Of a stretch of DNA of 64,000 bases, positions 45,861-48,833 are shown in pieces. The notes beneath the pieces are model-generated. The model did no database searches, was not told the DNA's origin, and worked only from the letters and a program-made list of their open reading frames with translations. Position 1 is the first letter of the stretch; the number at the start of each line of letters is the position of its first letter. A program made the translations under genes and the position numbers. Source of the DNA: Lachnoclostridium phytofermentans (GTDB taxonomy: Bacteria; Bacillota; Clostridia; Lachnospirales; Lachnospiraceae). Location of the stretch: positions 310,001 to 374,000 of the forward strand of contig NZ_JPOF01000003.1 in NCBI RefSeq assembly GCF_000733755.1, given 5' to 3'.

Positions 45861-46358
45861 TTAATTTGATATTTTATAACAATATCGGTATCCTTTTTCA
45901 GTTTCCTCGTATTTAGTAAATCCACAGCTTTCAAATAATTTTTGAGAAGATATATTAAACTTGTATATTTCATCTACTCTGATTTCTCCATAGCCTAGTG
46001 TTTTAGCTCTATTTATCAATGCAGTGATTACAAGTTTTCCAATTCCTTTCCCCCTATACTTCTTTTCTCCAATCACTATGGGCATATCATCCTTCCAAAA
46101 TGTCACATCACCTATTGGGACGAATGTTTCACCTTCTATAATTTCAATAAAATATTCTTCTCCCTGATTTGCTAAGAAAGTATACATTCTTTTAAGTCGA
46201 TCCATATCATATTTATCCGGTGTGTTATTTACAGATAGTAACGTTTCCTCGTCTTGATACCACTTTAATGCAAAGTCAAATACTCCGTCGTATTTTCTTA
46301 ATCTCAGTTTATTTGTAATAACGATAATTTCAGGTTGTTCAATATTTTTAATTGGCAT
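45861..46358 (-). CDS. GNAT-family N-acetyltransferase
   Basis: 165 residues, full length. The acetyl-CoA loop is GEKKYRGKGIGKLVI, followed by ALINRAKTLGYGEIRVDEIYKFNISSQKLFESCGFTKYE, the usual GNAT C-terminus. The start follows GAAGGAG. The substrate could be an amino group of a small molecule or a protein N-terminus; context gives no hint. Confidence 0.87.
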   Translation of the reverse strand: MPIKNIEQPEIIVITNKLRLRKYDGVFDFALKWYQDEETLLSVNNTPDKYDMDRLKRMYTFLANQGEEYFIEIIEGETFVPIGDVTFWKDDMPIVIGEKKYRGKGIGKLVITALINRAKTLGYGEIRVDEIYKFNISSQKLFESCGFTKYEETEKGYRYCYKISN

Positions 46359-46486: not shown

Positions 46487-47281
46487 CTATTTTTTCCCTA
46501 CTATAATTACATGATTACTTGCACCTAATACTGATTTTTCACGACATATACTATAATGATAATTGCACCAAACCTCAAATTGGGCAGCACTCAAGGCATC
46601 TATTCTCTCTCGCAGCAATGGTGACATTCCATCTTGTGCAAAATGTTCTATTATTTTTAGACCATTTCTTATGTATAACTCCTCCATTTCATCCATACTG
46701 GAATAATAAGTATCTGTCCAAAAACAATTCTCATCATCATGTTTTAAAACTCCAGTGTCGATTAACTGCTTTGCTAATTTCATATCCACATATCGTCTAT
46801 CACTCATAGCTATATGTTGAAAAACATAATATCTAGGAATATAGGAGGTTACTAAAAGTCCTCCCTTTTTAAGAACCCTAAGTGATTCAGAAATACATTT
46901 TTGTCTCAGATCTTCCGTAATTAAGTGATAAAGTGGTCCCATATTAAGGACAATATCAAATGATTCATCTTCATAAATCTTCATATCCGTTGCATCTAAA
47001 ATCGAAGTATTCATATAATATTTTTTATTCTTCAACTTTTGTTCAATTATTTCAATATGTCTTGGAGTTATATCTGTGGCAGTCACCTCATGTCCCTTAT
47101 TCGCTAAATAAAATGCATATACCCCTGTTCCTGCCGCGCAATCTAACACTTTCATTTTATTTTCGAATAATTCATCAAAGATTCTAGTTGTTGTTATGAA
47201 CTCAATCCTTCTAGCATTATTGGTTGTTAGTCTATCTTCTTCTTTAGAATTCTCATAGCTTTCTATTATAAAATTTTTCAT
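46487..47281 (-). CDS. class I SAM-dependent methyltransferase under T-box control
   Basis: About 264 residues from the ATG at 47281, seven bases after GGAGG (the ATG at 47287 is too close to that site). Motif I is VLDCAAGTGVYAFYLA, then VTATDITPRHIEI, DATDM, and FDIVLNMGPLYHLI (motif IV). The C-terminal 100 residues are not typical of rRNA or quinone methyltransferases, so the substrate is open. The gene is alone behind a complete T-box leader, so expression is tied to the charging of one tRNA. Confidence 0.87.
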   Translation of the reverse strand: MKNFIIESYENSKEEDRLTTNNARRIEFITTTRIFDELFENKMKVLDCAAGTGVYAFYLANKGHEVTATDITPRHIEIIEQKLKNKKYYMNTSILDATDMKIYEDESFDIVLNMGPLYHLITEDLRQKCISESLRVLKKGGLLVTSYIPRYYVFQHIAMSDRRYVDMKLAKQLIDTGVLKHDDENCFWTDTYYSSMDEMEELYIRNGLKIIEHFAQDGMSPLLRERIDALSAAQFEVWCNYHYSICREKSVLGASNHVIIVGKK

Positions 47282-47322
47282 ATCCATTCCTCCTACATAA
47301 ACAATAATTAATTTAGAACAAC

Positions 47323-47600
47323 AAAAAAGCTCCCTCCTTGCTTATATTTCAAGGACGAGAGCGTAAGCTTCGTGTTACCACCTTAATTCATCTGTATCTC
47401 ACAATACAGACCTTAACAAGTACGGAATACATTCGATACTCAGACGCTATAATGGGCGCACCCAGTGTAGCCTATACAATGTAGTCAGTACACAGCTCCA
47501 AGACTGGTTCAACATTTCATCAATAAAGTTTTTCACCAACCAACTTCTCTCTGTAATATCCAAAATGTTTACTATCTCTTTTCATTGCTTTTCATTCTTT
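47323..47600 (-). promoter_or_regulatory. T-box riboswitch leader of the methyltransferase gene
   Basis: The minus-strand RNA has Stem I elements (AGTAAAC, ACAGAGAG, GGTTGGTGAAAAAC, TTGGAGCTG), a GGGTGCGCCC stem, the T-box sequence AAGGTGGTAACACGAAG (47368-47384) and a terminator whose arms GCTC.C.TCCTTG and CAAGGA.GGAGC (47329-47362) precede six U. The specifier cannot be fixed by eye: GTA (Val) or TAC (Tyr) in GAGCTGTGTACTGA are candidates. Confidence 0.93.
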
Positions 47601-47606
47601 TTCGGA

Positions 47607-47635
47607 ATTATAATCTTTTTACTATTTCATGTCAA
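47607..47635 (-). promoter_or_regulatory. sigma-A promoter of the T-box leader
   Basis: Perfect TTGACA (47630-47635), 17 bp, perfect TATAAT (47607-47612) on the minus strand, just before the T-box RNA. The remaining 47640-47816 has no gene. Confidence 0.92.
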
Positions 47636-47816: not shown

Positions 47817-48833
47817 TTAGCATACAGCAGATTCAATAACAGTAAAAGATATTTTTTCGCAATCAATTTCTGCCATTGCACCTACAGGCATTATTGTCAT
47901 TGGAGTGCGATGAGAGAAATCGACATTCTCCAAAACTATAATATCTTCTCTATTTGCCTCATATTTAAGAAATTTCAATAAAATTTTTTCTTCTTCTTCA
48001 TTCAATTGATGCACTATAAGTCCATTTGCATGTTTAAAAAGTCCAGCTGCATCAAAAGCTCGAAGCTCATGCAGTCCAGCCAATGAACTACCATATGGTG
48101 AACCGATTTCTAAAAAGAGAATACAATCATTGAAAAATTCTGGTTTCGGGAAATATTTTGTCCCCATAATCTGTCTTAATGGGGCTCCGCAGCCACCAAA
48201 TAACCTTCCTTTTACTTTACCTTTCCCTTGTAATAACTTATAACCTGTATTCTTAGTCCATACTATATCATTTTCAGATACATCTCGCCATTCAATATTG
48301 GTATATGAATCGCATGGCTTAATTTCTCCTATCATTTCCTTACTAAATAAGCTTTTGTTTATGGCTTGCATTGTATAATCATCAAGCTTTACAGGTTGAG
48401 CAATTGGTGTAAGAAGATTAGGACCGTAAAATGACATGACGCCAGCGACCGCAAATAAGGTATTCCAAGATGCTATGTCAGAATATCCCATAAACACCTT
48501 AGGATTATTATGTATTACTTCAGCATCTATAAAAGGGAATACGCGATAAGAGTCATCACCACCCATAATACAGATGATTCCATTAACATCTTTATTATTC
48601 AATGCCCACATTAAATCAGCTCCACGTGCTTCTGGATGTTGATAAAGATAGTCGCTTCCCTTTAGTGCATTAGGAGTCGTAATAACTTTTACTCCGAATA
48701 AACTTTCTAAACGTCTTTTTCCTTCATTAAATCTGGTAAGCAGGTCAGCATCTCCACCCCTGCCACCAGATAATGAAATGAGAGCAATTGTATCTCCTGG
48801 TTTTAATACCTTTGGCTTTAATAGTTCCTTCAA
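47817..48833 (-). CDS. LD-carboxypeptidase family protein (peptidase S66)
   Basis: 338 residues. S66 features: GDTIALISLSGGRGGD near the N-terminus, ICIMGGDDSYRVFPFID, catalytic Ser118 in MGYSDIAS, LFLEIGSPYG with the Glu, and a C-terminal His in SHRTPMTIMPVGA. Members cleave the terminal D-Ala of the LD-linked murein tetrapeptide (LdcA) or, in the MccF branch, confer self-immunity to microcin-like nucleotide peptides. The length and absence of a signal peptide fit a cytoplasmic recycling or MccF-like enzyme. Single gene. Confidence 0.87.
   Translation of the reverse strand: MKELLKPKVLKPGDTIALISLSGGRGGDADLLTRFNEGKRRLESLFGVKVITTPNALKGSDYLYQHPEARGADLMWALNNKDVNGIICIMGGDDSYRVFPFIDAEVIHNNPKVFMGYSDIASWNTLFAVAGVMSFYGPNLLTPIAQPVKLDDYTMQAINKSLFSKEMIGEIKPCDSYTNIEWRDVSENDIVWTKNTGYKLLQGKGKVKGRLFGGCGAPLRQIMGTKYFPKPEFFNDCILFLEIGSPYGSSLAGLHELRAFDAAGLFKHANGLIVHQLNEEEEKILLKFLKYEANREDIIVLENVDFSHRTPMTIMPVGAMAEIDCEKISFTVIESAVC

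Follow-up and report, generated by a model that had tools for sequence, protein, structure and literature searches.

The gene studied here encodes a class I SAM-dependent methyltransferase (MT) and lies within a 64,000-nucleotide stretch of the Lachnoclostridium phytofermentans genome (contig NZ_JPOF01000003.1, positions 310,001 to 374,000), which we call the window and to which all coordinates below refer. The features of the locus are listed in the order in which they would be transcribed.

47817..48833, minus strand: S66 LD-carboxypeptidase superfamily gene, upstream, given as context (Pfam Peptidase_S66, 2.2e-27)
47607..47635, minus strand: promoter TTGACA - 17 nt - TATAAT (12/12 consensus positions)
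47348..47594, minus strand: T-box leader, Stem I to antiterminator (RF00230, 117.2 bits; covariation across six leaders)
47505..47507, minus strand: specifier codon CCA (Pro) in UUGAA-CCA-G-UCUUGGAGC (register from own and related T-boxes and from the TBDB rule)
47377..47380, minus strand: T-box UGGU in AAGG-UGGU-AACACG, complementary to the ACCA of tRNA-Pro (A73)
47323..47362, minus strand: intrinsic terminator GCUCUCGUCCUUG...CAAGGAGGGAGC-UUUUUU (folding energy; a compensated G-C to A-U pair)
46487..47287, minus strand: MT, class I SAM-dependent methyltransferase, 266 aa (Pfam Methyltransf_25, 9e-18; Methyltransf_11, 1.3e-17)
45861..46358, minus strand: GNAT acetyltransferase, downstream of MT (Pfam Acetyltransf_3, 1.2e-8)

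Translation of MT probably begins at the second ATG (47281), giving a protein of 264 aa, because an AGGAGG sequence abuts the first ATG. The original prediction placed MT alone behind its T-box, which seems a fair description: the GNAT gene follows only after a gap of 128 bases and is preceded by a promoter-like site of its own (46433-46404, matching 11/12 positions), so that it probably forms a separate transcription unit. An operon of MT and GNAT was rejected as the default reading on account of this site and because the pair is not kept elsewhere. Upstream on this strand, the S66 peptidase gene ends about 180 bases ahead of the promoter. Some S66 relatives, such as MccF, cut aminoacyl-nucleotide antibiotics, and the position of this gene directly upstream of the T-box makes a link via MccF-type relatives an enticing possibility. 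The surroundings of MT also contain short remnants, one from the C-terminal part of an RHH_8 regulator (45551-45369) and one that by eye resembles a GNAT C-terminus (43998-43771), which suggests that accessory genes are decaying in this zone. Elsewhere in the window, a cation/proton antiporter-like gene (13980-12793) is preceded by a fluoride riboswitch (RF01734, 48.7 bits) at 14234-14161.

A search with Rfam cmscan matched the leader (minus strand, 47594-47348) to RF00230 with 117.2 bits (gathering threshold 93, E 2.8e-25), covering the full model (1-219). The K-turn, the AGUA/GAA specifier loop, the AG bulge with the distal loop, stems II, IIA-B and III, the antiterminator and the terminator could all be located, and the Stem I landmarks read AUAGUA / UUGAA-CCA-G and CAGAGA / GGUUGGUG. 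The leader is therefore not truncated, and the earlier claim of a complete T-box behind a perfect promoter was borne out by both the full-length match and the 12/12 promoter. TTGACA and a -10-like hexamer were also recognized by eye ahead of the T-box in the orthologous leaders of two other genomes (G012 and G309). Weaker promoter-like matches in the AT-rich DNA of the window were no commoner than in shuffled sequence (23 vs 20.5). The antiterminator, AAGG..UGGUAAC..ACGA paired with UCGUCCUU, overlaps a strand of the terminator, which makes the two structures mutually exclusive, and the terminator is conserved in all six leaders. The calculated folding energy of the terminator is -16.7 kcal/mol vs -6.1 kcal/mol for the antiterminator alone, which predicts a switch that stays off without the help of tRNA, the usual behavior of a T-box. 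By every feature that can be tested in its sequence, the leader reads as a genuine, ordinary T-box.

We then assigned the specifier by comparison with other leaders. Before the same lower stem, the alaT and metG leaders of the same genome read GAA-GCA-G and GAAC-AUG-G, and the proS leader of a relative reads GAA-CCG-G-UCUUGG, a layout that matches the GAA-CCA-G-UCUUGG of the MT leader. According to TBDB, the specifier comprises nucleotides 2-4 counted from the 3' end of the loop (PMC7778990). These registers together with the TBDB rule give CCA, proline, as the specifier, and CCA is invariant in the six leaders. Readings as Thr (ACC), Gln (CAG) or His were ruled out by the GAA-(N)-XXX-R register of the metG, alaT, lysS and proS leaders in this genome and its relatives. 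The genome carries a tRNA-Pro(UGG) that ends in ...CCCCGA with A73 as its discriminator base, in agreement with the CCA specifier as well as with the UGGU T-box. From the anatomy of the leader and established T-box biology we infer a switching step in which transcription would begin at the perfect promoter and, as long as prolyl-tRNA is charged, the terminator would form and MT would stay off. When charging fails, the uncharged tRNA-Pro(UGG) would pair with the leader at two sites, through its anticodon at CCA in Stem I and through its ACCA end at the UGGU sequence; the antiterminator would then form and MT would be made. That the leader acts as such a proline-dependent switch is, judged from these features, very probable.

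To see whether related genomes keep the pairing of leader and methyltransferase, as the original prediction had proposed, we compared the loci of MT relatives. Close orthologues (E <= 1e-60) occur in 6 of the 397 genomes of the family. Full-length leaders were also found in G012 (84% identical; 119 bits against RF00230) and G309 (81%), in two further genomes of G012's genus (G443 and G450) and in a third genus (G655), the last being 85% identical to the G309 leader. An intact MT comes immediately after the leader in five species from three genera (G000, the genome of the window, with G012, G443, G450 and G655). In G309, which represents a fourth genus, a RimJ/RimL-type GNAT is wedged behind the leader and the MT that follows is broken. 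In a sister species from the window's own genus (G003), only a terminator remnant precedes MT and two other genes fill the rest of the space; at this locus (contig C155, 4245-1322), the T-box body is replaced by a second methyltransferase gene and an effector-binding (Cass2/GyrI-like) gene.

The six leaders share 46 base pairs that are formed in 100% of the alignment cells with letters, a percentage favored by the structure having been drawn from these same leaders, and 5 of the pairs show double changes, which are independent of that choice. None of 500 shuffles reached the real result, and structures slid along the alignment paired in 42-53% of cells. Since the orthologous gene in other genera is likewise preceded by the T-box, whose helices show compensatory base-pair changes, a chance origin of the match can be excluded on this comparative evidence, and the pair is no recent accident.

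No T-box was found before seven MT orthologues of 49-68% identity (in G332, G261, G178 and G062 and at loci L054, L055 and L056), from which it follows that the coupling of the T-box to MT is optional and that the job of MT does not require control by proline. Among paralogues of 24-38% identity, no T-box reached the gathering threshold in the loci examined. On the MT tree, the T-box state changes at least three times, which is compatible with one early gain followed by losses or with cassette exchange. Spread by phages or plasmids was considered and rejected, as viral contigs contained no close relative, the phages only one relative at 27% identity and the plasmids none above 40%.

Comparison with other T-boxes in three segments indicated that the leader is composite. 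Stem I of the G000 leader gave mean scores of 63 against proS, 60 against Ala and 29 against Met T-boxes, while stems II-III and the terminator region scored 57 and 54 against Met vs 17 and 21 against proS. The other three leaders scored in segments show the same mosaic pattern. The T-boxes used for this comparison were partly selected by their likeness to the MT leader; when only T-boxes of the same genome were used, an unbiased set, the contrast persisted, with Ala and proS at the top for Stem I and metG and lysS for the 3' half. The leader thus seems to consist of a Pro/Ala-type Stem I joined to a Met-type expression platform, whose UGGU is suited by A73 of tRNA-Pro. The proS T-boxes found here and in relatives (L031, L077, L079 and L085) share with it the Pro specifier, the GAA-CCN-R loop layout and a similar Stem I, but control prolyl-tRNA synthetase and differ from it in stems II-III and the terminator. 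Conversely, the metG, metA and metNIQ T-boxes (L044, L066, L067 and L104) share its stem II-III, antiterminator and terminator sequences, whereas their specifier is AUG and methionine genes lie downstream.

Compared with transcriptional T-boxes of the RF00230 type with a long Stem I, the MT leader has the same signature elements and the same terminator/antiterminator arrangement, and its specifier and UGGN likewise correspond to a tRNA of the genome, but it differs in its stand-alone MT target and in combining a Pro/Ala-like Stem I with a Met-like remainder. The genome contains 23 T-box matches, and all others but one precede aminoacyl-tRNA synthetase or amino-acid genes, with gene names assigned mostly by eye and some checked. 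The exception is an Ala (GCA) T-box followed by an IS1182-type transposase gene (G000:C7:53121-53367), probably the result of an insertion behind the leader. Another leader in this set, that of leuA (G000:C3:404469-404886, minus strand), has one Stem I and apparently two successive T-box/terminator modules; AGAGTGGTA occurs twice in it, and the first copy has a terminator of its own. In the main text of a 2008 survey, about 8% of T-boxes are stated to precede genes of unknown function or without an apparent amino-acid link, and no SAM methyltransferase of the MT type is named there (PMC2494555). The 25 T-box units listed for C. difficile involve amino-acid genes only (PMC11477304), and our literature search found no published account of a T-box before such a methyltransferase. 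As had been claimed from the sequence, the target is an unusual one, a SAM methyltransferase with no aminoacylation, amino-acid synthesis or transport gene downstream, although as a category it is not unprecedented.

The composite leader and its patchy association with MT bear on the main rival explanation, in which the T-box is a mobile inducible leader placed before a cargo gene, and proline charging and MT are functionally unlinked. The many orthologues without a T-box, the GNAT that took its place behind the G309 leader next to a broken MT, and the mosaic itself all fit such promoter capture. So do other Met-type T-boxes (GAA-A-AUG-G) that precede non-amino-acid genes, a GNAT followed by a MATE-like transporter in one case (L105 in G733) and a CPBP-type membrane protease in another (L103 in G596). 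However, the invariant specifier, the matched T-box and the compensated helices across four genera argue for continued selection on a response to tRNA, and the changes of T-box state on the MT tree also fit a single gain with later losses. We regard promoter capture as unlikely, although a serious contender. The related concern that MT was inserted behind the T-box of another gene is weakened by the recurrence of the pair in three genera and kept alive by the T-box-less orthologues and the pieced-together leader.

We next considered what MT itself may do. The protein has the features of a class I SAM methyltransferase, with a glycine-rich SAM motif (LDCAAGTG) and matches to Rossmann folds, and family searches assigned it only to this generic class. 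PADLOC matches, considered as a sign of a defence system, were to generic methyltransferase domains and this reading was rejected; nor was there a specific match of MT to a known drug-inactivating or target-modifying methyltransferase. The AF2 model of MT has a pLDDT of 87.6, falling below 50 for residues 1-15. The solved structures nearest to it are CmoM bound to tRNA (8joz) and TM1389 (2avn), both with a Z score of 26.1, followed by one at 21.4 and then by scores below 20, and TM1389 is also the top structural relative of CmoM itself (PMC10516636). The likeness to CmoM (8joz/4htf) and TM1389 covers the class I fold including the N-terminal helix and the C-terminal extension, whereas identity to MT is only 16-21%.

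This likeness raises the possibility that MT modifies tRNA, e.g., tRNA-Pro(UGG) or a related tRNA at its wobble uridine, such that the shortage signal would induce an enzyme acting on the same tRNA. CmoM of E. coli is the tRNA 5-carboxymethoxyuridine methyltransferase, which forms an ester at the wobble uridine, and it acts on tRNA-Pro3 (PMC6599085). Residues W124, R246 and Y247 of CmoM lie near the wobble base (PMC10516636). In an hhalign comparison with a CmoM sequence verified against the PDB entry, none of the three is kept in MT: W124 is replaced by His121 and the C-terminal GRYIH by GASNH, this last part being aligned by eye. The N-terminus of MT was left unaligned, a region of CmoM contacts (the contact list comprises K12, N16, K22, R26, N164 and R178). 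MT scored 33.7 bits against the CmoM family NF008264, far under the cut-off of 366, and no CmoB, which together with CmoA makes the cmo5U substrate, was found above cut-off in the genome. For these reasons, the modeled protein appears to be CmoM-like in its fold and not a CmoM. The acidic character of MT (pI 5.7) and its presence in just the 6 genomes mentioned above also speak against a tRNA substrate, and the Clostridia are reported to possess TrmR, which would imply mo5U (PMC6599085). The earlier guess of a role in tRNA or translation therefore retains its support at the level of the fold but not at the testable CmoM residues; it is the more exciting idea and a weaker one than promoter capture, and we consider it very unlikely.

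An amino-acid-derived metabolite pathway had also been suggested for MT, and the proline specificity of the leader and the glycine/sarcosine N-methyltransferases among the distant relatives of MT would be in keeping with a role in making N-methylproline or proline betaine, or in proline scavenging. No amino-acid pathway genes lie beside MT in any genome examined, however, orthologues without a T-box exist, and methylating proline during a proline shortage would be regulation in the wrong direction. This makes a proline-metabolite enzyme highly improbable.

The neighbors of MT orthologues are single genes for modifying enzymes, in company that changes from genome to genome: GNATs, NUDIX proteins, a nucleotidyltransferase, a streptomycin adenylyltransferase and a glyoxalase/bleomycin-type protein. 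These resistance-type neighbors are circumstantial support for protection. We favor a protective role for MT because the gene is patchy, stands alone and is found among modifying enzymes, and because a methylated proline makes little sense in proline shortage; judged from sequence and context, this role is possible but must be held tentatively. Once induced, MT would methylate a small molecule, such as an inhibitor of prolyl-tRNA formation or of translation, the making of a proline compound being less likely. As a whole, the proposal that MT, switched by tRNA-Pro, is an accessory, horizontally exchanged and most likely protective enzyme is our best explanation, though a provisional one that falls a little short of an even chance. 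It is tempting to speculate further that the locus forms a self-protection circuit, in which the mosaic T-box senses agents that stop prolyl-tRNA formation and the induced MT (or the GNAT in G309) either inactivates such an agent or protects what it attacks, although we think such a circuit rather unlikely.

T-boxes are usually read as markers of amino-acid genes. The conservation of a Pro T-box ahead of a single modifying enzyme suggests that accessory, possibly protective genes can likewise come under the control of tRNA charging. The mosaic leader further suggests that the sensing and switching halves of T-boxes are exchangeable between amino-acid classes. For MT itself, tRNA-Pro, proline limitation and inhibition of ProRS offer a testable handle.
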